Shown here in pieces: positions 2,411-23,700 of a stretch of DNA of 23,700 nucleotides. Source of the DNA: a virus. A program made the position numbers and the translations under genes. The notes under the pieces are model-generated. The model did not search any database, was not told the DNA's origin, and worked only from the letters and a program-made list of their open reading frames with translations. The stretch covers positions 1 through 23,700 of IMG/VR virus record IMGVR_UViG_3300033064_001827. One strand, given 5' to 3'. Each line of letters begins with the position of its first letter. Within the stretch, counting starts at the first letter, position 1.

Positions 2411-2430
2411 GGTATATATATAAAATGCGC

Positions 2431-2456
2431 GGTAAAATCTTACCTGTTGTTTCTTT
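2431..2456 (+). terminator. Possible weak terminator
   Basis: GGTAA (2431-2435) pairs with TTACC (2440-2444) around AATC, followed by a T-rich but interrupted tract (2445-2456). It lies just after the GIY-YIG gene and before the A-rich leader of the next cluster. The stem is short, so the call is tentative. Confidence 0.3.
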
Positions 2457-2541
2457 AAAAAAAAATCGGTAACTTCAATCTATAGCCTTTAACAAAAAAG
2501 AGAAAAAAGGGGATAAAAAAAATTAAAAAAAATAAATTAAA

Positions 2542-3452: not shown

Positions 3453-3453
3453 T

Positions 3454-4426: not shown

Positions 4427-4446
4427 CATATTTATATAATAAATAC
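4426..4446 (+). promoter_or_regulatory. Candidate late promoter, copy 1
   Basis: ACATATTTATATAATAAATAC sits between the sigma factor gene and the ATG at 4450. The ACATATTTAT core recurs before the genes at 15724 and 18476. No TTG lies about 20 bases upstream. An AT-only -10-type element without a -35 is the design of T4 late promoters (TATAAATA). It heads the baseplate block. Its recognition by the gp55-like protein is inference. Confidence 0.5.
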
Positions 4447-4449
4447 ACC

Positions 4450-4797
4450 ATGGGATTAGATACTACAATTTTTGGAACAAAAACAGTCTCTGACATCTTA
4501 AAAGAGATCTACGACAACTCTCGAAGCAAATCAAAACAAGTTAATGCTCTTATAGGAGAGTTAAAACCTCTTGTAGAGAATATAGGAGATGCGACCCTTG
4601 TCGTACCTATGATTAAAGAGTACTTAGAGGTAGGAGTAAAGAACGATGAGCACCTAATTAAAATGGTAGCTCTCGTACAGAGATTTGACAACGGAGGTAA
4701 AGGATCGGAAGCAGATTTCTTCAATCCAGAAGAGCTAGCAAGGTTAATGGAACAGAGTGAGCAAATAGGCAAAAAGTTAGATAACAAGGACGAGTAA
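4450..4797 (+). CDS. Hypothetical protein at head of tail operon (115 aa)
   Basis: I do not recognise this protein. It is acidic, probably mostly helical, with no membrane segment or cysteine. A glycine-containing linker near residues 78-84 (NGGKGSE) separates a helical body from a C-terminal helix rich in glutamate. It directly follows the candidate late promoter and is joined to the spike gene by a TAATG overlap, so it is likely made with the baseplate. It may be a structural or assembly factor such as a chaperone for the spike, but nothing in the sequence shows this. Confidence 0.7.
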   Translation: MGLDTTIFGTKTVSDILKEIYDNSRSKSKQVNALIGELKPLVENIGDATLVVPMIKEYLEVGVKNDEHLIKMVALVQRFDNGGKGSEADFFNPEELARLMEQSEQIGKKLDNKDE

Positions 4798-6868: not shown

Positions 6869-6885
6869 CATAACTATTTATTAAT
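6868..6885 (+). promoter_or_regulatory. AT-rich leader, possible weak late promoter
   Basis: ACATAACTATTTATTAAT fills the short gap before ATG 6886. It shares the TATTTATTAAT core with the candidate late promoter at 15696-15715 but lacks the full ACATATTTAT. It could be a weak internal promoter or only an A/T-rich translation leader. Confidence 0.25.
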
Positions 6886-7296
6886 ATGAAGTTAGATTTA
6901 TTAAAAAAATTAATAAAAGAAGCAGTAAAAGAAGCAGTTCGTGAGGAATTAAACACAATTTTATCTCAAGACGCAAAACCTGTACAACCACCTAAGCAAA
7001 CTATAACAAAGTACCAAAACTATAAACCTACAGTAGCAAGACCAATTCCTACAGGAGATCCAATTGCTGATTTAATGAATGAGACAAAGTACTCTATGAC
7101 TCAAGGAGATTATCAAAGCATGGTAAGTGCAACATCCAACATGGTACAAGCACCAGGTCTAGGAATGAATCCTATAGAAAACTTTAGACAAGGCCCAGAA
7201 CCGGGATTAGATATAACACAGTTTGATTTTATGATGAAAGCAGGAGACGTATACAAAGCATCAGTAGAAAAAGATAGACAAAGATTTGGAGCATAA
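6886..7296 (+). CDS. Small virion-associated protein candidate (136 aa)
   Basis: The first 28 residues are a strongly amphipathic lysine/glutamate helix (LLKKLIKEAVKEAVREEL). The rest is proline-, glutamine- and methionine-rich with little predicted structure and several methionine pairs. There is no membrane segment. It is TAATG-coupled to the gp25 gene, so it belongs to the baseplate operon. The helix plus disordered tail could be a scaffold, adaptor or assembly chaperone. I do not recognise a family. Confidence 0.65.
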   Translation: MKLDLLKKLIKEAVKEAVREELNTILSQDAKPVQPPKQTITKYQNYKPTVARPIPTGDPIADLMNETKYSMTQGDYQSMVSATSNMVQAPGLGMNPIENFRQGPEPGLDITQFDFMMKAGDVYKASVEKDRQRFGA

Positions 7297-7706
7297 TGGC
7301 ATTTAATGTACAACAAATAAACCCGTTAGATTTACAGCCTAGAAAAGCAATTGGGGTGAGTTTGCCATTTTCTGCTAAGGCTGTGTTTAACTCTACCTAT
7401 ACAACAAAAGATGCCTTAAAGTCTAATATTATTAACTATTTTTTAACTGAAAAAGGCGAAAGGTTTCTTAATCCTAATTTTGGTGCAGGGCTTAGGGCAA
7501 TTTTATTTGAGCAAATATCTCAAGATGTAGAAGAGCAAATTAGGTATATAGTGTCGCAAGGACTAGCAGATTGGTTTCCAAATGTAGTAGCAAATGATAT
7601 ACGAATAATAAGCACTCCCGATACAAATACAACTACAGTTTATATAAATTATAGTGTATCACAAACAAATATACAAGACGAACTAGCAATTAATTTTGAA
7701 CAATAA
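7296..7706 (+). CDS. 25: Baseplate wedge protein gp25 (GPW/gp25 family, 136 aa)
   Basis: The family signature is clear: a helix with LKSNIINYFLTEKGERFLNP (41-60), then NFGAGLRAILFE (61-72), a long helix (QDVEEQIRYIVSQGLADWFP) and a C-terminal beta hairpin. T4 gp25 is 132 residues, so this is full length. The protein joins the wedge to the tail sheath, where its core resembles a sheath handshake domain, and nucleates sheath assembly. It is directly upstream of gp6 with a TAATG overlap, matching the conserved wedge gene order of contractile tails. Confidence 0.9.
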   Translation: MAFNVQQINPLDLQPRKAIGVSLPFSAKAVFNSTYTTKDALKSNIINYFLTEKGERFLNPNFGAGLRAILFEQISQDVEEQIRYIVSQGLADWFPNVVANDIRIISTPDTNTTTVYINYSVSQTNIQDELAINFEQ

Positions 7707-9508
7707 TGGCTCAAGATAGAGATATAAAATACGTAAATAAAGACTTTGGAGACTTTAAGAATCAGTTAATAGAGTACGCTAAAAACTACTTTCCGGACGC
7801 CTACAACGACTTCTCACCTACATCACCAGGTATGATGTTTATAGAAATGGCGGCCTATGTAGGAGACGTATTATCATTTTATCAAGATACACAACTCCAA
7901 GAGACTTACATACAACATGCCAAGAATCCAGCAAACCTATTTAACTTAGCATACATGATGGGGTATCGTCCAAAAATATCAACTCCTTCAGAGGTTGATA
8001 TAGAAGTATCTCATGTAGTAGGAGCTTTAGATGGTAATCCAGACTTAACACAAGCACTACAGATCCCAGCAAACACACAACTAAAATCTACATCAGCAGG
8101 AAATGTTAATTTTGTTACAAACAAACCTATCGACTTTACCTTCTCAGGCCCATACGACAATACACAAGTAACAGTAGAATCACTTAATAACTTAGGAAAT
8201 CCTAATCAATTTAGATTAACCAAAACAGTAAAAGCTACATCAGGAGAAATTAAAACTATTACACAAGCAATTACTTCTGTAGAGAAGTTTAAAACAATAA
8301 CTATTGATGATACCAGTATAATAGGCATTCAGTCGGTAAGAGATAGTAATGATAATTTATGGTACGAAGTTCCGTTCTTAGGACAGGACACAGTATTTGT
8401 TGACAATACAAATAACAGTACAGATGAACAAGTTGTACCATACAGCTTAACACTACAAAGAGTTTCTAGAAGATTCGTAACGAGATTTACCTCTACAGGC
8501 CAATTACAAATTCAATTTGGAGCAGGTATGGCAGGACAAGATGATTCAATAATAACACCAGACCCAGCAAATGTAGGATTTGGCTCAAATCAAGGAATCT
8601 CTAGAATTGATTACGCTTTTGATCCATCAAATTTCTTATCAACAAAAGCATATGGACTTGCACCTTCAAACACAACACTAACAATTAAGTACTTAGTAGG
8701 TGGAGGAGTAGCAGCAAATGTTCCTGCAAATACAATAACTACTAGAGTTAGCCCTATTACAGATCCAACAAACTCACTTACATTTAACAATCCATTAGCA
8801 GCTGCTGGAGGAAGAGATGGAGATACTATTGACGAATTAAGAGAGAACTCATTAAGATCGTTTAACGAACAAGGAAGAGCAGTAACCCTTCAGGATTACA
8901 CCGTTAGATCGTTATCAATGGATTCTAAATACGGATCAATTGCAAAAGTATATATAACACAAGATCAACTAACAAATTCAAACAATAGTACAGATAGTAT
9001 AATTGATAGTAATCCACTATCACTATCTCTATACACTTTAGCATATAACAATAACAAGAACTTAGTAACAGCAACAACTACACTAAAAAGTAACTTAAAA
9101 GTATATCTTTCAGAGTATATGGTACTAACAGATGCTATTAACATTAAAGATGCTTTTGTAGTAACTATTGGAGTTAATTTCGATATAATAGTAAAGCCAA
9201 ACTTCTCAGGAAGAGACGTACTACTTGCATGTACAAATAGACTAAAAGATTATTTTGATATAACAAAGTGGAATATAAATCAACCAATTAATCTTTCGAG
9301 TATCTATACACTACTTGATCAAGAAAAGGGAGTGCAGACAGTGCAAAAAGTTGAAGTAGTAAATAATGTAGGTGGAGTATATTCACAATATGCATATGAC
9401 ATAGTAGGAGCAACTAGAAACAACATAGTATACCCTTCTTACGATCCATGTATATTTGAAGTAAAATTCCCAGACACAGATATTAAAGGAAGAATAACAA
9501 CACTATAA
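7706..9508 (+). CDS. 6: Baseplate wedge protein gp6 (baseplate J-like, 600 aa)
   Basis: The N-terminus shows the typical wedge signature: YVNKDFGDFKNQLIEYAKN, then FSPTSPGMMFIEMAAYVGDV at about 36-55 and FYQDTQLQET. The middle contains the J-like segment GGRDGDTIDELRE (about 368-380) followed by GRAVTLQDYTVRSL, and the C-terminus has the usual alpha/beta arm. T4 gp6 is 660 residues, so this is close to full length. It forms the dimeric ring that ties the six wedges around the hub and transmits the conformational switch for contraction. It is TAATG-coupled to gp25 and one base before the next gene. Confidence 0.9.
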   Translation: MAQDRDIKYVNKDFGDFKNQLIEYAKNYFPDAYNDFSPTSPGMMFIEMAAYVGDVLSFYQDTQLQETYIQHAKNPANLFNLAYMMGYRPKISTPSEVDIEVSHVVGALDGNPDLTQALQIPANTQLKSTSAGNVNFVTNKPIDFTFSGPYDNTQVTVESLNNLGNPNQFRLTKTVKATSGEIKTITQAITSVEKFKTITIDDTSIIGIQSVRDSNDNLWYEVPFLGQDTVFVDNTNNSTDEQVVPYSLTLQRVSRRFVTRFTSTGQLQIQFGAGMAGQDDSIITPDPANVGFGSNQGISRIDYAFDPSNFLSTKAYGLAPSNTTLTIKYLVGGGVAANVPANTITTRVSPITDPTNSLTFNNPLAAAGGRDGDTIDELRENSLRSFNEQGRAVTLQDYTVRSLSMDSKYGSIAKVYITQDQLTNSNNSTDSIIDSNPLSLSLYTLAYNNNKNLVTATTTLKSNLKVYLSEYMVLTDAINIKDAFVVTIGVNFDIIVKPNFSGRDVLLACTNRLKDYFDITKWNINQPINLSSIYTLLDQEKGVQTVQKVEVVNNVGGVYSQYAYDIVGATRNNIVYPSYDPCIFEVKFPDTDIKGRITTL

Positions 9509-9509
9509 A

Positions 9510-10622
9510 ATGGCAGTATACAGAATATTTCCTGAAAAGGATGCGTTTATATCATCAGAAGTACCAACAGGAAATGCTGGTAAGGATGAAATAATTGAGA
9601 TAGGAGGGTACTCAGATATTACAGGTATAGGGGAAACTAACCGCTTACTGATTCAATACACAACCTCAGAAATCCAAGATGTAATTGCAAATAAAATAGG
9701 TCAAGCAAATTATAGTGCTAGTATAAACCTATACCTAGCAGATGCATACCAAATACCAGTTGAATACACTCTATACGCATACCCAGTATATGGATCATGG
9801 AATAGTGGTGTAGGAAAGTTTGGGGATATTCCAACAAATACTACAGGAGTTTCTTGGATAAATAAACAAGCAGGAGAAGCATCTCCTTGGATAACAACAG
9901 GATTTGCAGTAAATACAACAGGATCGTACAAGTCTGGATCAACTCCAGGAGGAGGAAATTGGTATACAGGATCAGCAGGTATTAATTTAGAATTTACCCA
10001 ATCACATGTACTAAACTCAACCAACGATGTTAATATAAATGTAACAAAAGCTATACAACTGTTTAATAGCGCTACGTTAGTTAATAACGGGTTTATTGTA
10101 AAACTACCAGACAATCTCGAGTACAACACTACAGCCTCTATTCGACTTAAATATTATGGCGTAGATACCAATACAATCTACCCACCATTCTTACAATTTA
10201 AATGGGATGATAGTGCATATAGTACAGGATCTCTTTCCGTACTATCAAACAGCACTTCAATTATTAATCTAACTAATAATAAAGGAAAATATACAGACGT
10301 AGGAAAACAGAGATTTAGAATGTCAGCAAGACCTAAATACCCGGTAAGGTCTTTTACAACATCATCAGCATTCTTAACAAACTATGCACTACCTTCAGCT
10401 TCGTACTGGGGATTGAGAGATGAAAATACGGAAGAGATGGTTGTAGATTTTGATACACAATTTACAAAAATAAGCTGTGATTCAAACGGAGCATTTTTTG
10501 ATGTATATATGGATGGGTTGCAACCTGAGAGATATTATCGTATATTAGTAAAGACGACTTTAGATGGAAGCACTACGGTAGTAGATAACCAGAATATATT
10601 TAAAGTAGTAAGAAATGGCTAA
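9510..10622 (+). CDS. Beta-rich baseplate structural protein (370 aa)
   Basis: The sequence is almost entirely beta-rich and rich in threonine, serine, asparagine and tyrosine, with no membrane segment. Residues 4-50 (YRIFPEKDAFISSE then ETNRLLIQY) resemble the opening of DNRLRE-type beta-sandwich domains. A glycine-rich loop lies at about 145-157 (GSTPGGGNWYTGSAG). The C-terminal 90 residues look like a second sandwich domain ending in YYRILVKTTLDGS. Position right after gp6 suggests a wedge or periphery protein, in the place of T4 gp7 or gp8, though I see no clear similarity to either. It starts one base after gp6 and overlaps the next gene by eight bases. Confidence 0.65.
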   Translation: MAVYRIFPEKDAFISSEVPTGNAGKDEIIEIGGYSDITGIGETNRLLIQYTTSEIQDVIANKIGQANYSASINLYLADAYQIPVEYTLYAYPVYGSWNSGVGKFGDIPTNTTGVSWINKQAGEASPWITTGFAVNTTGSYKSGSTPGGGNWYTGSAGINLEFTQSHVLNSTNDVNINVTKAIQLFNSATLVNNGFIVKLPDNLEYNTTASIRLKYYGVDTNTIYPPFLQFKWDDSAYSTGSLSVLSNSTSIINLTNNKGKYTDVGKQRFRMSARPKYPVRSFTTSSAFLTNYALPSASYWGLRDENTEEMVVDFDTQFTKISCDSNGAFFDVYMDGLQPERYYRILVKTTLDGSTTVVDNQNIFKVVRNG

Positions 10623-10953
10623 CGATATTAGTATACAAAAGACAGTTTTTGGTAATGTAGATTTTTTAAAAGTAGTAGATACATCTTTTAAGACATTTAC
10701 ACAACCCGTTCCTGAAGAGGATTTAGATACTTCTGAAGAATTATTTAGACTATACGATAAGCTATACTACTCAATAGATATTGAAGGAGATCAAAACTCT
10801 CACAGATACTTAGTAAACAGAAGCTCAGAGTTGCTTAATTTTGATAAAGTTACTGAAGATATTCAACCACTATTGGATGAGATAGCAGAATTAAGAACAG
10901 AAAATCTTAGCCAAGCTCAGCAAATCTTAGCTCTAGAAACAAACATAATATAG
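10615..10953 (+). CDS. Small structural protein with C-terminal coiled coil (112 aa)
   Basis: The protein is acidic. Residues 1-45 look beta-rich (TVFGNVDFLKVVDTSFKTFT). A tyrosine-rich helical segment follows (LFRLYDKLYYSIDIEGD), and the last 30 residues are a regular coiled coil (LLDEIAELRTENLSQAQQIL). It overlaps the preceding gene by eight bases and abuts the next, so it is tightly bound to the wedge operon. It may be an oligomerisation or adaptor subunit between the wedge and the large protein that follows. I do not recognise a family. Confidence 0.65.
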   Translation: MANDISIQKTVFGNVDFLKVVDTSFKTFTQPVPEEDLDTSEELFRLYDKLYYSIDIEGDQNSHRYLVNRSSELLNFDKVTEDIQPLLDEIAELRTENLSQAQQILALETNII

Positions 10954-13900
10954 ATGGCAGATATAGTTTATACAGTTAATCAAGATTTACCAGAAAACAT
11001 AACAGGTTTTGAACAATACTCTCAAGAAGATAAAGCATTGGTATCTTCGTTTCAGATTAACAGTACGTTTGATCCAACCAAGCATTACTCAGAACTACAC
11101 ATACTATCTTTATCGGATGAGTTATTAGAAAGTACGTACACATACAATTCGTATACTTTATTAGGAAATGCACAATCTGCCGGACAAGCAGGAACATCTA
11201 TATTGACAATAGATCCAATACAAGATAGCAAGGCTTATGGTTACGAAAATGCAGGAATAAAGCTACTATACCACTTTTTAGATGATTTATATAGCGAAGA
11301 TCTTAGCACTGTAGAATTCTATATTAAAAGCATATCACCAGATAGGACAGAACTATCACTTTCAACTTTAAACTTAACACCTGAAGTAGTTGCAACAATA
11401 ACTTCAAACATTAAAGCTAATTTACAAAATCAATCATATTTTACAGGATTTAGATTAAATTTTAAAAATAATGATTTATTTATTGCAACTAATATAGATA
11501 CTTTAGGTACTGATACTGAGCAAGTAGTAGTAGTTAAGTTATACGAACCACTTCCAACTACTTATAGTACGAAAAGCACTTTAAGTATTGTAGATATAGT
11601 GTCGGATTCAGTAGTCTATGAGGTAGACTCACAAACAATAGAAGTACCTGAAGTACCACCAACCTTACGATCTGCTAATTTTAATATTGAAATAGCAGAT
11701 GATAGTGTGATACCTACTCAATATTATAACTACAATGAGCTATTTAGCTATCCAATTAACAATGCAAATAGTGAAATATTTTCAACGGTTAATGAAAAAG
11801 GAATAAGCATTAATGTAGATTATTCGGACTTTAACGACTTCGTACACTTCTCATCAGCACAAGAAAGATTATTAAACTTTAAATATAAACTAGATTTAGT
11901 AGCAAGCTACTCATCGAGTATATCCGAAAACTCCAATGCAACTATAGGGCTTGAAGGAGTATTAGGAACTACAACTTATTATGAAGGATTAATAACTGGC
12001 ATTGTAAGTAACTTTGATCACTACGAGAGATTTTTATACTACGAATCTGGAAGTAGCTGTTGGCCAAAAAGCAATACAACCAAGCCACACATAAACAAAC
12101 CAAGTAGTAATTCTGAATCAATAACTTGGTACACGGGCCAAATTAGCAAAGCAATTGAGTACGACTTAGCAAATAATAGCTCACTCGCTTACAGTATTCC
12201 AACATACCTAAGAGATGATACGAATAATGAAAATTATTTAACATTTGTTTATATGATAGGTCAGCATTTTGATAACCTATGGCTATATTCAAAAGCAGTA
12301 ACAGATAAATATGATGCTGATAATAGAATTAATTACGGTATTTCAAAAGACTTAGTAGCAGAAGCTCTAAGAAACTTTGGAGTAAAACTATATACTTCCA
12401 ACAAATCAGTAGAGGATTTATTTACCACATTTATCGGACAAGCATATCAATCAGGTAGTGAGAAAATTAGTACATATATAACAGGATCATTAACAGGTTC
12501 TAACACTCCTATTCAACCAACTTCGTACGACAATTATCAAAAAGAAATACAAAAACGTATATACCACAATCTTCCTTTACTTTTAAAATCAAAAGGAACA
12601 GAGAGAGGATTAAGAGCTTTAATTAACTGTTATGGTATACCAGCAAACACTTTAGATATAAAGTTGTATGGAGGAACTAACCAAACAAATTTACCATTTT
12701 TTGCAAATACACAATACGTTACAAGTTCATTAGATAAAATAAGATTAGATAATACAGGAAGCGTTATAGATGGAAATACTTTATCCAATTTTACGTCAAT
12801 AGCAAAAGTAGATCAAAAGTACACAAACGATTTACATACTATTGAAGTAGGATTCTCTCCTACAGATAATATCGACCAGTATATCATATCACAATCGTCA
12901 GCTACTTTTAATATTGACCAGTACTTAGGAGATCCTACCAACATAACCTCAGGAAGTTACTCAGGACTAGACACAGCAGCACAACAAATTTTACAATCAC
13001 TAGAGCAGTACGACTTGCAAGATTATGTAAGATTAATTAAGTTTTTTGATAATACAATCTTTAAAACTATAAAAGACTTTATACCAGCTAGAGCAGTAGC
13101 AACTACAGGAGTTATTATTAAACCAAATCTACTTAATAGATCAAAAGCAAAATCAGTAGCAGTTTCTGCAACACAACCAGAATATACAGCATCAATTGAT
13201 ACAGCATTTATATCAGGATCAGATGGAGGAGCTTTTGAATCTACTACAGCAATTGGTGGCCACTACGATACTTCTTGGATAAATTTTATACAAACTCCAC
13301 AAGGACTAGGGCAAGATACTAGGAACCAAGGTACAAGGCTACCCGAATATACAGGAGAATTAGGTCAATCAAATATTACCGTTTCTACAGTTAATTTAAA
13401 CATTAACAATTCATTTAAAATACAAAATCCAATACCTATTGCCAATCAACAGGTGCGATTAATTAAAGATTTTCCATCAAACATTTGTGGAATTACACCA
13501 AATTATGGAACTTTCATAGTTACAAGAGACGATACTGCTCCATTTACATATAACAACTATAGCATTAGGCAGAGATTTAGCATACCCGGAGATGCTACAG
13601 CTACATATCAAATATACTCAGGCTCAGAAACACCAGTAATTATTACATCAACTGCAAGTACATACGATTTTAATAAAAACTACACAACCTACATAGTAAG
13701 TGCATCTAAACCTACACCTGCAGGATGTACAGGTTCAGCAAAATTTAAAACTGAATTCTGCGACATAGTACGACTTAGTAATCCTAGTACAGTACAATAC
13801 GATACACAAGTACAACTTAATACATTTTTTACTACAGGATCAAATACAAATACACAGTACTACACAGTGATAAACAACATAGAAAGTCCAATTAATACCC

Positions 13901-14400
13901 CATACAACTTTACCCAAAGCATAGGAACATCTCTTCAGGTAAGACTTAAAGACAATAGCATTGCTTCTTGTCAGCAACAGACAACTAACATTGTAATAGT
14001 AAGCCAACCAACACCAAATGGAACAACCCTATCCGGAAATTTTGTAAATCAGTATGGAGAATTTGAACTACAAAGCATTGATGCAGTAGCTGAAGCAACT
14101 ATGACACTAGGAGCATCAGGAAACTTTGGAACTTTAAATCTGTCACTATACGTTAATGAAAATCCTGACAGAGCTCAAGCATATTACAGAATATACTCAG
14201 GAGGAACACTACTATACACATTAACTCCTATACTAAGATCTAATGGTACACCAAGCGTCACAGCAGCTTACCTAGACCTTAATACACTAAACGGACTAGT
14301 AGCAGAAGAGGAATACACCATACAGTTAAGCATTGTAGCTACCTACATGAAGTCATTTATTGCGCCGACTGCTATAGTATCAATAGGACCATCTATATAA
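10954..14400 (+). CDS. Large baseplate wedge protein, gp7/gpI-like candidate (1148 aa)
   Basis: The central part has features of the tail protein I family: QHFDNLWLYSKAVTDKYD (about 437-454), GISKDLVAEALRNFGVKL, then KRIYHNLPLLLKSKGTERGL with KGT at 547-549 and RALINCYGIP. In contractile tails the gpI counterpart in T4 is gp7 (1032 aa), encoded next to gp6, and length and position fit. Residues 1-420 are beta-rich with acidic patches. From about 790 to the end, one or more Ig-like beta domains with paired cysteines (GCTGSAKFKTEFC) appear. These could be arms or decoration. The gpI link is from motif and order only. Confidence 0.6.
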   Translation: MADIVYTVNQDLPENITGFEQYSQEDKALVSSFQINSTFDPTKHYSELHILSLSDELLESTYTYNSYTLLGNAQSAGQAGTSILTIDPIQDSKAYGYENAGIKLLYHFLDDLYSEDLSTVEFYIKSISPDRTELSLSTLNLTPEVVATITSNIKANLQNQSYFTGFRLNFKNNDLFIATNIDTLGTDTEQVVVVKLYEPLPTTYSTKSTLSIVDIVSDSVVYEVDSQTIEVPEVPPTLRSANFNIEIADDSVIPTQYYNYNELFSYPINNANSEIFSTVNEKGISINVDYSDFNDFVHFSSAQERLLNFKYKLDLVASYSSSISENSNATIGLEGVLGTTTYYEGLITGIVSNFDHYERFLYYESGSSCWPKSNTTKPHINKPSSNSESITWYTGQISKAIEYDLANNSSLAYSIPTYLRDDTNNENYLTFVYMIGQHFDNLWLYSKAVTDKYDADNRINYGISKDLVAEALRNFGVKLYTSNKSVEDLFTTFIGQAYQSGSEKISTYITGSLTGSNTPIQPTSYDNYQKEIQKRIYHNLPLLLKSKGTERGLRALINCYGIPANTLDIKLYGGTNQTNLPFFANTQYVTSSLDKIRLDNTGSVIDGNTLSNFTSIAKVDQKYTNDLHTIEVGFSPTDNIDQYIISQSSATFNIDQYLGDPTNITSGSYSGLDTAAQQILQSLEQYDLQDYVRLIKFFDNTIFKTIKDFIPARAVATTGVIIKPNLLNRSKAKSVAVSATQPEYTASIDTAFISGSDGGAFESTTAIGGHYDTSWINFIQTPQGLGQDTRNQGTRLPEYTGELGQSNITVSTVNLNINNSFKIQNPIPIANQQVRLIKDFPSNICGITPNYGTFIVTRDDTAPFTYNNYSIRQRFSIPGDATATYQIYSGSETPVIITSTASTYDFNKNYTTYIVSASKPTPAGCTGSAKFKTEFCDIVRLSNPSTVQYDTQVQLNTFFTTGSNTNTQYYTVINNIESPINTPYNFTQSIGTSLQVRLKDNSIASCQQQTTNIVIVSQPTPNGTTLSGNFVNQYGEFELQSIDAVAEATMTLGASGNFGTLNLSLYVNENPDRAQAYYRIYSGGTLLYTLTPILRSNGTPSVTAAYLDLNTLNGLVAEEEYTIQLSIVATYMKSFIAPTAIVSIGPSI

Positions 14401-14412
14401 CCATAACCAACC

Positions 14413-15666
14413 ATGACTATTTCAGACTTTAAATTCTTACTATCAGATACGTTATCAGAGAGCTACATAGGAGGTGCAGGAACACAGGTTATAGCACTAT
14501 TTAACACCTCATCACTAGGAACCACTATAGACGCAATAGCACTACAAGTAGATAATACAACTACACTAACAACTTTAGAACAAGCAATCACAGTAACCCT
14601 GAAGCTACCAGCATCAGGTTCAGTAATTAGTATAGCAGTTACAGATTCGCTATTGCCTTATAGACTAATAAACAAAAGTGTTGTACAGCAATACTTTGTA
14701 TATGAAATATATCCTGAAAATCAACGACCAGTAATCATTAATCCAACAACAGGATCAGCCACTGGATACGAAGAGTACATTACAGAGTTAATACTAGAAC
14801 CTACATCGACACAAGAGAGTTTTAGTACAAGTGCCTATAACATTCTTATAGGAGATGTACAACAAAGTAGGCAATCAATCTATGCATATAAATTAGACAA
14901 AATAGCGTTAGTAGGAACAGGTTCAAATCCAAGAAACCTACCAAGCATATTAACAGATACTGCACAGCCTGCAGACATACAAGACAGTAGCTACTTGAGC
15001 AGGACTTGGATAAATCCTAGGTATGAAGGAAGTACACTAACAACAATAACCAATGGAAATACAGATCCGTTTATATCAGCTACACCTGTTCAAGGAGCGT
15101 TTTATGAGAAAGGCGTATTAGATAGTTTTATAGTAAGCGAACAGCAAGCAAACACAGTAAAGTATGAAGAGTTCTTCTATAATGGAATAGGCACAGTACC
15201 AGACTACGCTCTCATCGACACAAACTGGACCTTTGTATCGTCAGACAACAGTGGGTTTAATCAAAACACAACACAAGTAGTATTAACAATAGGCTCAGAT
15301 ATATTAAAAAATCCAATAGGCATAACAGATATTTTACGAGTAAGTGGATCAATATCAGGAATATCTACAGAGATCTTAAGTGTAACACCTCCTACAACAA
15401 ATACAAACTACTATCCGTTTGAGAACATAGGCACTACTACTGGAACACTTAACATAGTGAGAGGGTACAGTGGAACACCTAGAACAGGTTCATTTAATGA
15501 TAACTCTCGTATCTATAAGGTTAATCCAACATACCTATATAGAAGAGCTGGAGCTGGTTTTCTAGCACTAAGAGAAGGTAAGTTTATAACAAACAGATCA
15601 GCAACAATTTTAAATATAGGTTTAAAAGGACAAGTAATAAGTGGTAGTACAACTAACTACTTATAA
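14413..15666 (+). CDS. Tail/baseplate structural protein (417 aa)
   Basis: This is a beta-rich, threonine- and serine-rich protein with no cysteine and no membrane segment. The N-terminal 95 residues look like a beta-sandwich (SVISIAVTDSLLPYRLINKS). A short linker is followed by ALVGTGSNPRNLPS and DSSYLSRTWINPRYEGS (about 168-215), then a second domain ending in a glycine-rich RRAGAGFLALREGKF motif (about 375-390). It lies 12 bases after the large wedge protein and before a candidate late promoter, so it ends that transcript segment. It is probably a baseplate-periphery or fibre-attachment protein. I do not recognise a named family. Confidence 0.6.
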   Translation: MTISDFKFLLSDTLSESYIGGAGTQVIALFNTSSLGTTIDAIALQVDNTTTLTTLEQAITVTLKLPASGSVISIAVTDSLLPYRLINKSVVQQYFVYEIYPENQRPVIINPTTGSATGYEEYITELILEPTSTQESFSTSAYNILIGDVQQSRQSIYAYKLDKIALVGTGSNPRNLPSILTDTAQPADIQDSSYLSRTWINPRYEGSTLTTITNGNTDPFISATPVQGAFYEKGVLDSFIVSEQQANTVKYEEFFYNGIGTVPDYALIDTNWTFVSSDNSGFNQNTTQVVLTIGSDILKNPIGITDILRVSGSISGISTEILSVTPPTTNTNYYPFENIGTTTGTLNIVRGYSGTPRTGSFNDNSRIYKVNPTYLYRRAGAGFLALREGKFITNRSATILNIGLKGQVISGSTTNYL

Positions 15667-15695
15667 AAATGGTAAAAAGCAAAAATAGTAACAAG

Positions 15696-15715
15696 ACATA
15701 TTTATTAATAAAAAC
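15696..15715 (+). promoter_or_regulatory. Candidate late promoter, copy 2
   Basis: ACATATTTATTAATAAAAAC lies in the 57-base gap before ATG 15724. The first ten bases are identical to the copies at 4426 and 18409. There is no TTG in the -33 position. The gap is one of the few intergenic spaces in the tail block, which supports a promoter. Confidence 0.5.
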
Positions 15716-15723
15716 AAAGTAAG

Positions 15724-16383
15724 ATGGGATATTTAAATAATACAGTAGTAACTGTAGATGCAATTTTAACAAAAAAAGGAAGAGAACTACTTGCAAGAGG
15801 AGATGGATCTTTTAAAATAACACAATTTGCATTGGCAGATGACGAAATAGATTACACACTGTATAACCCTAATCACGTATCAGGATCAGCATACTATGGT
15901 GAAGCAATAGAAGGTATGCCACTACTAGAGGCATTTCCCGATGAAAACCAAATTATGAAGTATAAACTAGTAACCCTACCAAGAGGAACTTCAAAACTTC
16001 CAATACTTGATTTAGGATTTGCAGCAATTAGACTAAAGCAAGGAGCATCACTAGCAATTACCCCTCAAACACTTAACTACCTAAGTAGCACAAATACTTT
16101 TGAAGCAGGAGGGTATGTAGCAACTATTGCAGATGCTAGAGTTTTAAATACCTTTAATGGCGTTGGTATTAATACAACTGAAGCAGCAGCTTTAAATTCA
16201 ACCACTACTTTAGGAACTAATGTATCTAAAACAGTAATAGGAACCTCAATTAACTTAACAGCAACTACAGTAAATACATTGTTTGGAAACAATACAACAC
16301 TACAAACAACTATTACAGTAATAGGTAGAGATTCAGGAGCCAGGCTAACAATTCCAGTAACTATCATAAAAGCAAACCAATAA
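15724..16383 (+). CDS. Fibre-associated structural protein (219 aa)
   Basis: The N-terminus, LTKKGRELLARGDGSFKITQFALADDEIDY (about 14-43, shown in two adjoining parts in the sequence), resembles the opening of tail-collar and fibre-base proteins, where a helix and a beta strand precede a variable domain. A segment around residues 60-85 (GEAIEGMPLLEAFPDE) is acidic. The C-terminal half is threonine- and asparagine-rich beta structure. It has its own candidate late promoter and is followed after three bases by a pair of related proteins. It may link fibres to the baseplate. No cysteine or membrane segment is present. Confidence 0.6.
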   Translation: MGYLNNTVVTVDAILTKKGRELLARGDGSFKITQFALADDEIDYTLYNPNHVSGSAYYGEAIEGMPLLEAFPDENQIMKYKLVTLPRGTSKLPILDLGFAAIRLKQGASLAITPQTLNYLSSTNTFEAGGYVATIADARVLNTFNGVGINTTEAAALNSTTTLGTNVSKTVIGTSINLTATTVNTLFGNNTTLQTTITVIGRDSGARLTIPVTIIKANQ

Positions 16384-16386
16384 GAT

Positions 16387-17394
16387 ATGTCATTTAAAAG
16401 ATTTGATACAGAAGACATTGCACTAAGTGCAGAATCAATAGTAGCACCAGCTTGGTCTAACCAACAAACAAATTTAACTACTATTTTTAGCAGCTCTCAA
16501 GCAAGCCTTACATCCGGAAAATACTACTATAATATATTTGCAGCAGCTTTAGGTGCAGGAGATATTCAATTTGCAGCAGCATATGGAAATAGAAGAGGAA
16601 GTGGATCGGCACTAATTAGTACTACAGAAGTTGGCAAGTCTCCATCATCGGTAATATACGGACAGTATAGGACGTTAATAAATGGAGATGAGGATACAGA
16701 TTTTACATTTGGAGCAGGAGCACCAACTCCAAACTCAGTCTATGTTATATCAGTTAATAGAGGTAGGTATAAAGAAAAAATACTACCAGGTAGTTTTCAA
16801 CTAAGACTGGGAAGTGGTAGTCGCACAATAAACCTTATAGACAATAGCACAGCTTTATCGACAATCTCATATGTAGATGCAGGAAGAGTATATGATATTG
16901 TAAGTGGAACATTACAAAGTGGAATTACAAACTCAGACCTAACCGCATTTACAGCAGCATCAGGATCGTTTGGAAAAATGTATCCAGATATTGGAGTACT
17001 TGTCTTAAACGCAAATGCATTAAAACACCCTACTATTGGAATTAATTTAAACGTATCAGAAAGCTATAATTCAAATGGAAATAATATAAATACCTTTGCA
17101 ACAGCAATATCATCTGGATCAAGTTTTCAACTAAGATCAGAAGAGACACTAACTTCAAACTATGTATTTATTAGAGTAAGAAATAGCGAATTTAACTATT
17201 CAACTAATCCATCCAATATTACAGGTTCAGGAGAACTAAGACATAACGTAATGATAAATACTCCACAATCGTACATTACAACAGTAGGACTGTATAATGA
17301 TAATAACGACTTATTAGGAGTTGCAAAATTATCAAGACCATTGCTAAAAGATTTTACAAAAGAAGCATTAATAAGAATTAAACTTGATTTTTAA
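16387..17394 (+). CDS. Baseplate/tail structural protein, paralogue A (335 aa)
   Basis: A helical-beta N-terminal domain (about 1-110) contains AAALGAGDIQFAAAYGNRRG and YGQYRTLING. A central beta region follows. The last 75 residues (SEFNYSTNPSNITGSG, then SYITTVGLYNDNNDLLGVAK and SRPLLKDF) are clearly related to the end of the next gene product. The shared part ends in both with an alternating beta strand (ALIRIKLDF here). Length and placement among tail genes indicate a virion component. Paired paralogues could form a hetero-oligomer. It starts three bases after the previous stop. Confidence 0.65.
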   Translation: MSFKRFDTEDIALSAESIVAPAWSNQQTNLTTIFSSSQASLTSGKYYYNIFAAALGAGDIQFAAAYGNRRGSGSALISTTEVGKSPSSVIYGQYRTLINGDEDTDFTFGAGAPTPNSVYVISVNRGRYKEKILPGSFQLRLGSGSRTINLIDNSTALSTISYVDAGRVYDIVSGTLQSGITNSDLTAFTAASGSFGKMYPDIGVLVLNANALKHPTIGINLNVSESYNSNGNNINTFATAISSGSSFQLRSEETLTSNYVFIRVRNSEFNYSTNPSNITGSGELRHNVMINTPQSYITTVGLYNDNNDLLGVAKLSRPLLKDFTKEALIRIKLDF

Positions 17395-17397
17395 TGA

Positions 17398-18351
17398 ATG
17401 GGTGCTTACAAAAAATTAAACAAACAAGATGTATATATAACATCGCGTACTGCTCATAAAACTTACACAGTAGCTAATACCGCATACACCGGTTTAGGAA
17501 TAACTATACAGTCAGTTACTGGAAGCTTATATAACAGCTTAAAGCAACTATACTACCCTTCTAAATCGGAGGGTAATATAGTTTCCCATTCATATGATTA
17601 CTACGACCAAACAACACTCTATAACCCCGATACAAGACAGAACCTACAAAGCGGTAGTACGAATGTTTCTGCATCACTAGTAATATCAATACCTCGAAAC
17701 TTATACGGCACTTACATTAAACCAGGCCCACCGTTTAAGTTATCAATGTTTGATATGCCGGAAGATAAATACATATTGCAGGAGTACGCGTACTGGCCAG
17801 ATATATCTGTGTTTACCCCTGACGTAACATCAAACGAAGATGTGGTTATTGAACAAATAGTAACACGATCAGTGGTTGATGATCAAGAAGGTGGGCTATA
17901 CATATATAATTCAGATCCAAGAAAGTACGTAGGAGATATAGTATATTCCCACGGAATTTTAATACTTACAGATCCGCTAGCAATTACAGGACTTAGAAAT
18001 ACAATAACACTAAAGTCTGAGATAACTTGGCAAACAAGTCATCCAATTTTTACACATACCTATAACTGTAAAATAAAAGAGTCGGAGTTTAACTATACAT
18101 ACAATCCATCTGCACTATCAAGTTCAATAAAAACTACTTACGATAACATAGGTGATATTTACTCCACATCAGTAAACAACTCTAATGGAGTATTAAAAAA
18201 TAACATAACAGGATCTTCCTTTCAACCATACATTACCACAGTAGGATTATACAATGATGCAAATGAGTTAATAGCAGTAGGAAAGATGGCACAACCAGTA
18301 CCTAAATCAGCAAATACAGAAATGACTATAGTTGTACAGTTAGATATATAA
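17398..18351 (+). CDS. Baseplate/tail structural protein, paralogue B (317 aa)
   Basis: Residues 1-60 form a tyrosine-rich beta domain. A middle segment (PPFKLSMFDMPEDKY, about 114-128) precedes a beta-rich region. The C-terminal 90 residues (SEFNYTYNPSALSSS, then YITTVGLYNDANELIAVGK and AQPVPKSANTEM) parallel the end of the preceding protein, with an insertion of about 17 residues. The N-terminal halves do not look alike, so domain sharing rather than whole-gene duplication is likely. Two start codons, at 17395 in another frame and 17398 in this frame, are adjacent; this frame is fixed by the protein sequence. The gene ends just before a small hairpin. Confidence 0.65.
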   Translation: MGAYKKLNKQDVYITSRTAHKTYTVANTAYTGLGITIQSVTGSLYNSLKQLYYPSKSEGNIVSHSYDYYDQTTLYNPDTRQNLQSGSTNVSASLVISIPRNLYGTYIKPGPPFKLSMFDMPEDKYILQEYAYWPDISVFTPDVTSNEDVVIEQIVTRSVVDDQEGGLYIYNSDPRKYVGDIVYSHGILILTDPLAITGLRNTITLKSEITWQTSHPIFTHTYNCKIKESEFNYTYNPSALSSSIKTTYDNIGDIYSTSVNNSNGVLKNNITGSSFQPYITTVGLYNDANELIAVGKMAQPVPKSANTEMTIVVQLDI

Positions 18352-18475: not shown

Positions 18476-21400
18476 ATGGCAATAAAACTAAGAACAAATA
18501 AAGGAACAGCACTTACTCATCTAGAAGTAGATGAGAACTTTGCCTCTAACATTTACTCAGCATCATTAGAAACAGGAAGTATTGCGCTATATTATACAGC
18601 CAGTGATACTTTTGGTCCTACGCAAAAAGTACTACAAATTCCACTTCAATGGAAAATAGTAGATGGAGTAAACATAGCAAGAAATGGAGATCCAGGAACA
18701 ATCGTAAAGATCTCAGGTAGTATTCAAACTGGACTCAACACAACAACACCAGGATTATACTCATATGCAGGTGGTATTGATACAGTAGCAGATGGGCCCT
18801 ACCAACAAGTTCAAGGAGCTTACAATATTTCTTCTTCATCACCAGCCGCTTTTATAGTAGGTAATGGTAGCTCAACTACAAGATCAAATCTAATATTTGC
18901 ATCAGCATCACAAGTCCAAATAACAGGTTCGCTTTTAATAACAGGTTCAAATACCTTAATAGGAGCTAAAACCATAATAGGTTCCGTTTTTATATCTGGC
19001 TCTAACACTGTAGTAGGAACAAATACTATAACAGGTTCTCTTTTAGTATCAGGAGCAAGTGAGTTAGTAGGAAATCAAACTATATTAGGATCCTTAGCTC
19101 AAGGATCAGGATCACTAGCATTAGGATCAGGATCACACGCAGAAGGTTTAGGTACAGTTGCATCTGGATCATATCAACACGTTCAAGGCCAATATAACAT
19201 ATCTTCATCAGCACAATCAGCTTTCATATTAGGAAATGGTAGTTTAATTACTAGATCAAACTTAATCTTTGCTTCTGGTTCACAAGTACAAATAACAGGA
19301 TCATTAAATATAACAGGATCTTTACAGGTAACTGGTTCAATATTTGGAGATGGAAGTAAGTTGAGTAGTGTAAATGCCCTTACAAAGGTATTTTATGTTA
19401 CAGAAAATGGTAACGATAGTTTTGATGGAAAGACCTTACAAACCAGCTTTCGAACAATTAAAAGAGCATGTACAGCATCTGCAGACCAGTATGCTGCTAA
19501 TCCTACGAGTCAAACAGGATCCGCTCCATACCGAATAAATATAAATGTTAAGAGTGGATACTACAGTGAAGATGCTCCAGTAATTGTACCAGCATTTACA
19601 ACTATAAACGGAAATGATTTAAGATCGGTAATAGTAGCACCATCAGGATCCACTAGTGGTTCAAATTTATTTCAACTTAATAATGCAACCTATATTTACG
19701 GATTACGATTAGAAGGATGTGTATTAGATAGTTTAGAGGATCCTAGACAAGGATTCTACTTCGCATACCAACCAGGTGCATACTTAACAACTTCTCCTTA
19801 CATTCAAAACTGTACAGCAGTTAATACGCCATTCGATAAGTTCTATACACCATTAAGTTTTGAAGATGGAAACTCACAAGTAGGAAACGGACCAGGTGGA
19901 ATGATAGTAGATGATTCAGTACTTGATCCATACTCTCCTTTAAAATCTATGATTGTAGATGCATATACTCAAGTAGCATTTAATGGTATTGGAATATGTT
20001 TAAGAGGTAGAGGATATGGGCAAATGGTATCGTTCTTTACAAACTTTAGTAGAGTGGGTGTTTTTGCAATAGATGGAGGACATGCTTCCTTACTAAACTC
20101 AAATACTACATTTGGTGATTACGGACTAAGAACAAGTGGATCCAGAATAATGATTAACCCAGATACTTCAACAGTTGATCCCGCTATATATACTGCTTCT
20201 GCTGATTTGCTTTCAACATTGAAAGGAGATATACAAAGCTATGAAATAGCATTTTTACAAGCAAGCGGATCTACTGCATATACAGGTAGTGTATACGCAG
20301 GAACTACTGAAAGTAATGCTCTTTTAGCAAATTGTAAAAAAGATGCAGAATATTTAGTAGATGCTCTTGTAGCAGATTTAAAATCATCAACAGCAACAAA
20401 CATCTCAAGATTTACACAAGGGTATTTTAAAGCTCAGGATATATCTACTAATACAAGATACACTTTACCAAGCGCTTCTAACGCATACACAAAAGGAGTA
20501 ATAACAGTTATTCCACAAAAATCAGGTAGTGATGCAGGTTCAGATGGTAAAAAGTTTACAAAAGATTATTTACTTACTTTTAATGCAATAGCGGATTATA
20601 TATACACTTCATCATTATCAGCACCTGCTAAAGCAAAAGTTAGACAACTTGTAAATACATTAAACCACACAATATCAAGTGTAGTATTACAAGAAAAAGA
20701 TAGGTATAAAAAAGTAGCTCCAAATACATCAGCTGTCCCAACAACTTTAGTTGCTTCAGCAGCAACCTATGCAACTACAATAGAGAATGCAAGACAAACA
20801 ATTATTACTAATGAAATAGACTACTTAGTAGCAACTAGTCCTAACTCTGGGAGATATACAAATACACAGGAGAATGCAGTAGTAAGAGCAAAATGTGCAA
20901 CAGATGCAGGACAGTTAATAGATGCAATTAAAGCAGATCTACTTACTACAGGATCTGGATATACGGTACGATTTACACAAGCATATTTTCCACCAATATC
21001 AGGTTCAACTGCAACTAGAGTATTAAACTCAGGATTAGGAACTGCTGTACCTGACGCATCGGGTACGTACACAAATATTGCACAGGATTATTTAAGAGCA
21101 TTTACATCGATAAGTAGTAGTATAGTAGCATTACCAGGCTTATCTGAACAAGCAAAAACTAAAGTTGCTGAGTTAATAAAAATACCAAGCGGTTCAATCG
21201 CAGACCTAGTAGTAGCCAATCCAGCAACAAGTGCACTAATACAAGAAGTAACACTACTAGAGGAATTTGGATCATTAATTACATCAACATCACATGATTT
21301 TTCGTATGCAGGATCAGGTGTAAATTACTTAGCATTTCCTAACAACCAAGGAGGTACAGGTAAAACATCAGTAGAGAGAAGGATTTTTAATGAAGGATTA

Positions 21401-21556
21401 GGAAGAGTTTACCATACATCAGGAGATGAAACAGGAGATTTCTATGCAGGAGATGATTTTGTAATCAGACAAGATACAGGAACAATTGATGGTAGATCAT
21501 TTTCAAAATCTGTATCAGCATTAACAATACCAATAAACTTAGCATTAGAAGGTTAA
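18476..21556 (+). CDS. Large tail fibre/structural protein with beta-helix domain (1026 aa)
   Basis: The start AIKLRTNKGTALTHLEVDEN is typical of T4-like tail structural proteins. Residues about 105-305 carry two YadA-head-like modules (QQVQG at 110-114; SHAEG at 220-224 with QHVQG at 234-238) and ITGSL stalk repeats. Residues about 305-560 look like a right-handed beta-helix (VTENGNDSFDGKT, then glycine/asparagine-rich rungs), as in pectin-lyase-fold fibres. Residues about 570-745 and 765-950 are two copies of a helical domain (TASADL and NCKKDAEYLVDALVADL; KCATDAGQLIDAIKADL). The end, GDFYAGDDFVIRQDTGTIDG, is a beta motif common at phage fibre ends. It probably forms a trimeric receptor-contacting fibre. 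Confidence 0.75.
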   Translation: MAIKLRTNKGTALTHLEVDENFASNIYSASLETGSIALYYTASDTFGPTQKVLQIPLQWKIVDGVNIARNGDPGTIVKISGSIQTGLNTTTPGLYSYAGGIDTVADGPYQQVQGAYNISSSSPAAFIVGNGSSTTRSNLIFASASQVQITGSLLITGSNTLIGAKTIIGSVFISGSNTVVGTNTITGSLLVSGASELVGNQTILGSLAQGSGSLALGSGSHAEGLGTVASGSYQHVQGQYNISSSAQSAFILGNGSLITRSNLIFASGSQVQITGSLNITGSLQVTGSIFGDGSKLSSVNALTKVFYVTENGNDSFDGKTLQTSFRTIKRACTASADQYAANPTSQTGSAPYRININVKSGYYSEDAPVIVPAFTTINGNDLRSVIVAPSGSTSGSNLFQLNNATYIYGLRLEGCVLDSLEDPRQGFYFAYQPGAYLTTSPYIQNCTAVNTPFDKFYTPLSFEDGNSQVGNGPGGMIVDDSVLDPYSPLKSMIVDAYTQVAFNGIGICLRGRGYGQMVSFFTNFSRVGVFAIDGGHASLLNSNTTFGDYGLRTSGSRIMINPDTSTVDPAIYTASADLLSTLKGDIQSYEIAFLQASGSTAYTGSVYAGTTESNALLANCKKDAEYLVDALVADLKSSTATNISRFTQGYFKAQDISTNTRYTLPSASNAYTKGVITVIPQKSGSDAGSDGKKFTKDYLLTFNAIADYIYTSSLSAPAKAKVRQLVNTLNHTISSVVLQEKDRYKKVAPNTSAVPTTLVASAATYATTIENARQTIITNEIDYLVATSPNSGRYTNTQENAVVRAKCATDAGQLIDAIKADLLTTGSGYTVRFTQAYFPPISGSTATRVLNSGLGTAVPDASGTYTNIAQDYLRAFTSISSSIVALPGLSEQAKTKVAELIKIPSGSIADLVVANPATSALIQEVTLLEEFGSLITSTSHDFSYAGSGVNYLAFPNNQGGTGKTSVERRIFNEGLGRVYHTSGDETGDFYAGDDFVIRQDTGTIDGRSFSKSVSALTIPINLALEG
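19133..19239 (+). repeat. Fibre cassette repeat, copy A
   Basis: This 107-base stretch matches 22503-22609 in the neighbouring fibre gene with six mismatches, and its first 41 bases are identical. It encodes SHAEGLGTVASGSYQHVQGQ and the following YNISSSAQSAFILGNG. Five of the six changes are silent third-base changes; one gives S to L. Confidence 0.85.
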
Positions 21557-21578: not shown

Positions 21579-21929
21579 ATGGCAGCAACTAAAATACCAT
21601 TAAATACATTCCTATCCGTAACAGGATCATTAACAACAAGTCCAATACTACTATACTCAACAACAGCTTCAGTATCTACAATTGTACTATCTGCTGCTGT
21701 AGCAAATGTAACACCAAGTACACAGTACTTTGGAATGCATATAACTAAATCAGGATCAGCTGCACCAGTTTATATAGTATCTGGATCAGGTATTGCTAAG
21801 GGAGAATCAATGAACCCACTTCCAGGAAAAATTATCTTACAAAAAGGAGATGGCTTTTATGCAACAGCCACTGCAGGTAGTGGTAACATACACGTAATAC
21901 TATCTTTATTAGAAACAGCAATAGACTAA
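21579..21929 (+). CDS. Small beta-rich structural protein (116 aa)
   Basis: This is a serine-, threonine- and alanine-rich beta protein with one methionine-histidine segment (YFGMHITKSGSAAPVYIV) and a glycine-rich C-terminal turn (KGDGFYATATAGSGNI). There is no cysteine or membrane segment. The A-rich leader before ATG 21579 has no Shine-Dalgarno. It sits between two large fibre genes, where small fibre-tip, fibre-adaptor or assembly proteins are often found. The VTGSLTTSP near residues 14-22 echoes the ITGSL stalk motif of both fibres, so it may associate with them. I do not recognise a family. Confidence 0.65.
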   Translation: MAATKIPLNTFLSVTGSLTTSPILLYSTTASVSTIVLSAAVANVTPSTQYFGMHITKSGSAAPVYIVSGSGIAKGESMNPLPGKIILQKGDGFYATATAGSGNIHVILSLLETAID

Positions 21930-21938
21930 TTAAGTATC

Positions 21939-23700
21939 ATGGCAAAAAGATCAACTAGAAAACCAGAAGGAGCTAGAAATTTAACAATAGGAATTTATTC
22001 TCAAGTAGGTGGGGAAGATGTACAAGCAGTAGGGGACTTCTCACATGCAGAAGGATCAAATACAACAGCATCAGGATCCTTTTCACATGCCGAAGGATTT
22101 GGTACGATAGCATCAGGATCTTACTCACATGCAGAAGGACAAACTGCAAGGGCAGAGGGATCCTATTCACATGCAGAAGGATCTTCTGCAGTAGCACAAG
22201 CAAGCTTCTCACATGCAGAAGGAGTTAGCACAACAGCATCAGGATTTGGTTCACATGCTGAAGGATTTGCTACAACAGCATCAGGATCTTCTTCACATGC
22301 AGAAGGATATCTTACAGAAGCTATAGGATTGTACTCACATGCAGAAGGATATAGTACAGACGCAATAGGGGACTATTCGCATGCAGAAGGTTTAAATACA
22401 ATAGCGAACGGAGTTGCATCACATGCTGAAGGAAACAATACAACAGCATCAGGATCACATTCACATGCAGAGGGATCAGGATCTGTAGCAATAGGAATCG
22501 GCTCACACGCAGAAGGTTTAGGTACAGTTGCATCTGGATCATACCAACACGTTCAAGGTCAATATAATATATCTTCATCAGCACAATTAGCTTTTATATT
22601 AGGAAACGGGACATCCAATGCCAATAAATCAAACTTAATTTTTGCCTACGGAACACAAAATAATGGTGTAGTTGAAATAACAGGATCACTTAGAGTAAGT
22701 GGTTCAATAACAGGTTCTTTTCTTGGAACTGTATCGAACATAGAGGGAGGTACAGCAAATTACATTACACTTTGGAAGACTGCAACTTCTTTAACAACTA
22801 GTTCAATCTACCAATTAGGTAGCAAAATAGGTATAGGAACAACAAATGCTACAAACACTCTAACAGTTCAAGGAACAACAAGCCTAAATGGTAATACATC
22901 TATAACAGGATCCCTAGCACAAGGGGTCGCAGGAAACGAAGCCTCAGGACTAGGAGCACATGCAGAAGGACTTAGTACTACAGCATCAGACTACTACTCA
23001 CATGCAGAAGGACGCCTTACACAGGCATTAGGACAATACTCACATGCAGAAGGATTTAATACCTTATCATCAGGATCGTACTCACATGCACAAGGATACA
23101 TAACACAGGCAATCGGAAATTATTCCCATGCAGAAGGATATAGTACAGACACAATAGGAGTAAATTCACATGCAGAAGGGTTTAAATCACAAGCATCAGC
23201 AAGCTATTCACATGCAGAAGGTTTAAGCGCAATAGCATCAGGAACATACTCACATGCAGAAGGAAATGGTACAAATGCATCAGGAAGTCGCTCACATGCT
23301 GAAGGAGCTAGTGCAAAATCAATTGGGATAACCTCACATGCCGAAGGACAAAGTACAACAACATTAGGAACATCTTCCCATGCAGAGGGATTTAATACAG
23401 ACGCAAATGGAGTATATTCACATGCTGAAGGATACCAAACAAAAACAGAAGGAACAGGTTCACATGCAGAAGGGCTTAATACAACAGCACAAGGAAATTA
23501 CCAACATGTCCAAGGGCAATATAATATTTTATCCCCTGCACAATCAGCTTTTATAGTAGGAAATGGAACAAGTACTGGTAACAGATCAAACTTAATTTTT
23601 GCCTCTGGTTCACAAGTACAGATAACAGGTTCATTAATGGCACCTTCAATAACAGGTTCTTTATTTGGAACTGCATCAAACATACAAGGTGGTACAGCAA
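21939..23700 (+). CDS. Giant repeat tail fibre, 3' end beyond window (587 codons seen)
   Basis: An open frame with ATG at 21939 runs to the window edge. After a basic N-terminus (MAKRSTRKPEGARN), SHAEG-type repeats recur every 14 residues: 12 units from residue 35 to 193, ending in QHVQG at 203; then 13 from residue 340, ending in QHVQG at 522. This is the YadA/Hep_Hag left-handed beta-roll repeat, which trimerises in adhesins. Each array ends with an AFI(L/V)GNG and SNLIFA segment and ITGS stalk motifs. The region at about 262-339 carries NYITLWKTATSLTTSSI and KIGIGTTNATNTLTVQG, a fibre module. The last residues begin a second copy of that module. It is probably a host-range receptor-binding fibre. 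Confidence 0.85.
   Translation, partial: MAKRSTRKPEGARNLTIGIYSQVGGEDVQAVGDFSHAEGSNTTASGSFSHAEGFGTIASGSYSHAEGQTARAEGSYSHAEGSSAVAQASFSHAEGVSTTASGFGSHAEGFATTASGSSSHAEGYLTEAIGLYSHAEGYSTDAIGDYSHAEGLNTIANGVASHAEGNNTTASGSHSHAEGSGSVAIGIGSHAEGLGTVASGSYQHVQGQYNISSSAQLAFILGNGTSNANKSNLIFAYGTQNNGVVEITGSLRVSGSITGSFLGTVSNIEGGTANYITLWKTATSLTTSSIYQLGSKIGIGTTNATNTLTVQGTTSLNGNTSITGSLAQGVAGNEASGLGAHAEGLSTTASDYYSHAEGRLTQALGQYSHAEGFNTLSSGSYSHAQGYITQAIGNYSHAEGYSTDTIGVNSHAEGFKSQASASYSHAEGLSAIASGTYSHAEGNGTNASGSRSHAEGASAKSIGITSHAEGQSTTTLGTSSHAEGFNTDANGVYSHAEGYQTKTEGTGSHAEGLNTTAQGNYQHVQGQYNILSPAQSAFIVGNGTSTGNRSNLIFASGSQVQITGSLMAPSITGSLFGTASNIQGGTA
22041..22559 (+). repeat. SHAEG repeat array 1 (42-base period)
   Basis: The array holds twelve 42-base coding units, each containing SHAEG, plus a terminal QHVQG unit. 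The core DNA is close to TCACATGCAGAAGGA, while the other positions of each unit vary (GxxTxAS consensus). The period is uninterrupted from residue 35 to 207. Confidence 0.92.
22503..22609 (+). repeat. Fibre cassette repeat, copy B
   Basis: This is the partner of 19133-19239: 107 bases with 101 identical. It forms the end of the first SHAEG array and the following domain of the giant fibre. A more diverged third copy of the QHVQG part begins at about 23502. Confidence 0.85.
22956..23516 (+). repeat. SHAEG repeat array 2 (42-base period)
   Basis: Thirteen 42-base units, starting with AHAEG at residue 340, are followed by QHVQG at 522. One unit has SHAQG. With array 1 this makes 25 SHAEG-type units in the visible part of the gene. 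The two arrays are offset by 319 residues when aligned on QHVQG. Confidence 0.92.

Follow-up and report, generated by a model that had tools for sequence, protein, structure and literature searches.

A probable multi-head host-contact fibre built of YadA-head-like repeats in an Immutovirus-like phage

The window analysed here is an entire virus record (IMGVR_UViG_3300033064_001827, 23,700 bases), and a gene on its plus strand (open reading frame 21939-23699) runs off its 3' end, with 587 amino acids read and the stop codon absent up to the record end. The best explanation overall, and one in which we have considerable confidence, is that this gene encodes a host-contact fibre of the phage tail, built in the manner of a multi-head adhesin, whose body is swapped among phages. 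The fibre is a cleanly laid out addition to an already known and widespread kind of phage fibre.

The readable part of the gene (21939-23700, 3' end open) is modular, and all its modules lie on the plus strand. Degenerate N-terminal turns (21972-22040), recognised in the sequence and by predicted strands from residue 14 on, come before array 1 (22041-22544), which consists of 12 SHAEG units of 14 residues each. This is followed by cap 1 (22545-22688; QHVQG..AFILGNG..SNLIFA..ITGS), placed by cap comparisons and the family alignment, by connector 1 (22689-22757; LRVSGSITGSFLGTVSNIEGGTA) and by a linker module, NYITLWKTA..SSIYQ..IGIGTT (22758-22955), that precedes array 2. The 13 units of array 2 (22956-23501; 11 SHAEG, one SHAQG and one AHAEG) lead to cap 2 (23502-23633; QHVQG..AFIVGNG..SNLIFASGSQVQITGS), again placed by cap comparisons, and to connector 2 (23634-23700), which the record end cuts after ..SNIQGGTA plus one base (A). 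Unit spacing is exactly 14 residues throughout both arrays, and SHAEG occurs 23 times in the protein compared to at most once in 2000 shuffles of its residues. QHVQG starts at residues 203 and 522, 319 residues apart, and the module order QHVQG..AFI.GNG..SNLIFA..ITGS..SITGS.xGTxSNIxGGTA is common to both caps. An earlier sequence-only reading of this DNA had claimed the 12 and 13 units, the identical cap order at a spacing of 319 residues and the record end at the GGTA of the second connector, and all three were confirmed, the last with one further base. The same reading called the fibre giant, which the comparison with complete relatives of 187-2162 amino acids does not bear out.

The gene lies in the tail module of a recognisable phage. 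Window genes 1778-18351 match gp123 to gp105 of Flavobacterium phage immuto one-to-one with 26-88% identity, most above 55%, and profile matches and synteny identify a baseplate block (7296-17394, plus strand) of gp25-like and gp6/J-like proteins and homologues of immuto gp113-gp106, which places the fibre in the tail module. The fibre genes lie downstream of the syntenic block, where immuto has its "tail fiber" and "tail spike" genes. Gene 21939 matches immuto gp101 ("tail spike", E=5e-76) and the profile phrog_25468 (E=9.8e-78), and these matches, together with its syntenic place behind the baseplate genes, identify it as an Immutovirus-like tail fibre. The synteny with immuto and the gp25-like and gp6/J-like baseplate proteins suggest that this is probably a contractile-tailed Immutovirus-like phage of Flavobacterium or a related Bacteroidota host. 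Two genes at the end of the syntenic block (16387-17394 and 17398-18351) are distant paralogues, each cross-matching immuto gp106 and gp105, and most syntenic phages retain the two together. At the other end of the window, a 37-nt element (TTCAGTATCTTTAGGTATnAATAATTAAAACAACAAA) is found in two copies (3-39 and 286-322; 0 expected), each directly 5' of an ORF start. Its core is enriched between small immuto genes (16 sites, 3.8 expected), and it is probably a phage promoter.

Most relatives of the fibre carry the N-terminal anchor MAIxLRTVTGSxLTxxQxDxNFSS, which has no counterpart in gene 21939 and is found instead on the neighbouring fibre gene (18476-21556, plus strand, 1026 aa). That gene has one SHAEG unit (19133) followed by an unrelated body, with cap modules at 18797-18901 and 19169-19273. 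We infer that the fibre of gene 21939 may dock on this anchor-bearing neighbour. The neighbouring gene is itself chimeric, with a body and a C-terminus that match other families of tail fibres (phrog_5342, phrog_17885). A small protein of 116 aa (21579-21929, plus strand; phrog_1276) is encoded between both fibre genes, and one other locus, L183, carries the C-terminus of gene 18476 together with a homologue of this small gene.

The SHAEG repeats are YadA-head-like, judging by sequence comparison. Among solved structures, the best sequence relatives are trimeric autotransporter adhesin heads (BpaC 7o23, E=3e-13; CbpF 9u93, 2e-5), and part of the cap aligns weakly in the profile search with the stretch of CbpF that comes after its repeats. 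The window protein scores 22.9 bits against Pfam YadA_head (PF05658), under the gathering cut-off of 25, which the close relatives L009, L011 and L041 exceed (52.1, 42.2 and 31.6 bits); matches to the NCBIfam models EmaA, Ata and BimA are all far under their cut-offs. The 14-residue tandem spacing of YadA heads is present, and 2526 spacings of 14 were counted among the relatives. An AlphaFold model of the window protein made with 17 sequences, a single-chain prediction that can reveal neither trimer nor handedness, gave two solenoids (residues ~12-206 and ~326-500, pLDDT about 93-96; ~95 for array 1 and ~93 for array 2) with two strands per 14-residue turn. The caps and linkers stayed below pLDDT 50 in the whole model, and a cap plus linker modelled as a single chain reached pLDDT 63 with no structural match. 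Foldseek/VIA matches of the whole single-chain model were generic PDB beta-helices only, YadA not being listed among them. The earlier proposal of a beta-roll with cap domains is supported in that both arrays are confident single-chain solenoids, and not for the caps, which did not fold.

Fibres of this architecture are common. A search of viral contigs yielded 361 relatives, of which the best 80 were retrieved; the 83 complete non-redundant ORFs over all loci retrieved range over 187-2162 aa, 4-68 units and 1-5 arrays. Two or more arrays are present in 35 of the 83, two or three strict caps in 11 of the 83, and two relatives, L005 and L011, have three array-plus-cap blocks each. This shows that the multi-block architecture, suspected from the window alone, is real and ordinary in this fibre kind. 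A search of cellular genomes gave only three weak relatives, one of them a prophage-type fibre in a Clostridia assembly, and no relevant literature on SHAEG repeats or on Hep_Hag phage fibres was found. Other fibres (L163, L198 and L232 of one contig, and L240) contain many copies of TATNIAGGTA..QISPGITGFIGTGTTG, another repeated fibre building block with the same GGTA connector.

The model proposed here is that the product of gene 21939 would be the host-contact fibre, or adhesin, of an Immutovirus-like phage, in which each 14-residue SHAEG unit would make up a single turn of a beta-roll like that of YadA heads, and a trimeric shaft would probably be formed by three chains. Each roll would be closed by the cap QHVQG..AFIxGNG..SNLIFA, and the GS-rich connector and the NYIxLW/GIGTT linker would join one roll to the next, giving a chain of heads and linkers like that of multi-head trimeric autotransporter adhesins. 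The fibre would be attached at the phage tail, and the rolls would bind the receptor with their variable lateral faces. The fibre body would be swapped and reshuffled among phages between conserved surroundings, as seen in the pair L005 and L073 described below, and perhaps also exchanged between the fibre genes of one genome. Such swapping would alter array number and fibre length, and tandem copying of the 319-residue unit would not be the main route.

The alternative that survives best, though we consider it unlikely, is that the array serves only as a passive spacer, with specificity residing in a distal domain encoded past 23700. Many phage fibres bind via their tip, and the relatives share a C-terminal domain, ILQL..EGMI..GS..LYYYNGTxWNALF, after the last cap. 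However, in the six proteins that end in this way the C-terminal domain has a mean identity of 62%, whereas array positions 6-14 have 35%, which is the reverse of what is expected of a specificity tip. This conserved terminal domain and the variable array faces favour host contact by the sides of the rolls, and the terminal domain would then be a folding or trimerisation unit.

How the fibre changes length is best seen by comparing related phages. At the locus behind genes 16387 and 17398, the number of units in the fibre ranges from 0 to 28 among syntenic phages. Two near-identical phages, L005 and L073, share 96.6% identity on the upstream side, which reaches about 85 codons into the fibre gene, and 97.8% on the downstream side, whereas their fibre bodies are only 75-78% alike, in patches, and have three array-plus-cap units in L005 versus two in L073, with different ends. 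A similar pattern was found on one side in L069 and L082. In another pair, L023 and L031 (~91% identical), unit number is the only difference (31 vs 28). Taken together, the L023/L031 units and the L005/L073 bodies show that unit gain or loss and body replacement both occur, with the large differences coming from replacement, and where near-identical phages vary, the fibre body seems to have been replaced. The idea in the sequence-only reading that such fibres change length by recombination is supported in that array and unit numbers vary between near-identical phages, but in L005 and L073 this is replacement of a whole body and not the gain or loss of one unit. One further pair of contigs, L080 and L081, is 99.95-100% identical except for stretches of ~101 and 118 bp present only in L081; the ~101-bp stretch is within the fibre gene and its absence splits the L080 frame, and this difference is an assembly artefact or a real variant.

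These comparisons bear on a second alternative, in which the 319-residue array-plus-cap block is a tandem duplication unit and length changes by recombination between units. Two blocks of identical module order at this spacing speak for it, as do the three-block fibres of L005 and L011. The connectors are also alike, with 56 nt of connector 1 88% identical to 23645-23700. Arrays 1 and 2 share their unit order weakly (5 of 300 shuffles reach it), and caps are more alike within one protein than between proteins (DNA 0.81 vs 0.72). However, repeat units are ~63% identical in DNA within and between arrays whatever the distance, and array DNA shows 60-70% identity at all offsets, without any block standing out as closer; among 12 loci, order-preserving block duplication between arrays was at most weak. 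The closest relative of the 5' half of cap 1 is in another gene, the neighbour 18476-21556 (91% over 124 nt; next best locus 83-85%), and the second caps (QSVIGQFN) of L006, L007, L009 and L010 are alike from one phage to another but unlike the first cap in their own protein. The replacement of the body between L005 and L073 also argues against this alternative. We therefore regard tandem duplication as improbable, and on the DNA comparisons the 319-residue block is mostly not a duplication, or only an old one; the sequence-only reading described it as a unit of duplication, and a recent duplication of it is not supported by the ~63% identity of the units or by the relationship of cap 1. The difference between the 5' and 3' halves of the caps suggests cap exchange between the two fibre genes, and the mosaic signal is modest, reaching significance in the 5' half (p=0.0007) and not in the 3' half (p=0.11). 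A search for DNA-level recombination seams at caps and connectors found codon identity no higher there than in the arrays.

The sequence that follows the caps in relatives indicates what may lie past 23700. When a cap is followed by the terminal type (ILQL..), a stop comes within 56-68 residues with no further array (14 of 14). When it is followed by the connector type (..TGSLFGTAS..), the frame continues for 141-936 residues in all 20 untruncated relatives, with a further array present in 13 of 25. In the window, cap 2 has a continuation of the connector type and not of the terminal type, so by analogy with these relatives the frame likely continues past 23700, and a third array there is about an even bet. 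That the frame ends soon after 23700 in a truncated or decaying gene is hardly credible, since all it has in its favour is a stop lying outside the record, while connector-type caps like cap 2 continue in 20 of 20 cases. An exact 44-base search of viral contigs for the continuation gave no match. The sequence-only reading had predicted an LW segment next, and the LW linker is a genuine module, also present in L041, L064, L227 and L253. The TxxNIxGGTA connector is no proof of it, as in other fibres this connector leads more often to other segments, mostly G/N-QxPYQ modules. An A as last base is compatible with N or T and rules out the G-initial continuation that is commonest after the GGTA connector elsewhere. 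A contig break caused by a repeat in the window was considered and rejected, the last 11 bases being unique within the window.

The closest known counterpart of the fibre is immuto gp101 (YP_010114582.1, phage vB_FspM_immuto), which likewise has a SHAEG array and a QHAQG..AFIIGNG..RSNLVFA cap (55% identity over 240 aa) and the same tail-module neighbourhood. It differs in its single array, of 10 SHAEG units, and its terminal domain, where the window fibre has two arrays, and in a long N-terminal part before the array, where the window fibre is almost without an N-terminal domain. Heads of trimeric autotransporter adhesins (YadA/Ylhead/Hep_Hag; BpaC 7o23, CbpF 9u93, BpaA 3LAA) have 14-residue roll repeats like those of the window fibre, and several heads per protein joined by linkers are known from the multi-head architecture of BpaA (PMC2942831). 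Unlike these adhesins, the window fibre has a SHAEG core and not SVAIG, lies in a phage tail context and has a cap and connector that differ from their necks. No membrane anchor or secretion module was seen; an adhesin-type membrane anchor was looked for in the complete relatives read and none was found, the 3' end of the window gene being outside the record. The prophage fibre in the Clostridia assembly (L254, Firmicutes) shares SHAEG units and an AFIIGNGTS..RSN cap with the window fibre, but has another N-terminal anchor (Phage_tail_fib) and a Peptidase_G2 autoproteolytic C-terminus, both domains being found in the fibre gene scanned there. Two adjoining prophage-type tail-fibre genes at this locus (L254:1026-4894) both have SHAEG units and a GNG cap, so that the repeat module is found in phage groups that differ widely. 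In metaviromic islands, marine phage tail fibres have also been reported to carry a YadA-type domain where they vary most (PMC3909814); unlike the window fibre, they have only one such domain and an N-terminal anchor that is T7-like. In T4, host range is widened by duplication of an adhesin domain of gp37 (Tetart et al. 1996, cited in PMC9603124). As cited there, this is an earlier case in which repeated fibre domains change host range; the domain concerned is small and lies near the tip, and the effect was shown by experiment.

Through the data presented here, a large number of environmental phage fibres, most of them without annotation, can be connected to the well-studied architecture of trimeric adhesins in bacteria. 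The function of such fibres is testable in the cultured phage immuto, and L005 and L073, near-identical phages with different bodies, are a natural comparison for the evolution of fibre length and host contact. Tentatively, and with less confidence than for the window fibre itself, it is possible that in the fibres of aquatic Bacteroidota phages a chain of freely swapped beta-roll heads lies between an anchor and a terminal domain that are both conserved, and that host contact evolves in this way. If this is true, host contact would evolve by the exchange and re-chaining of whole heads, including between two fibre genes, and not by change at the tip.
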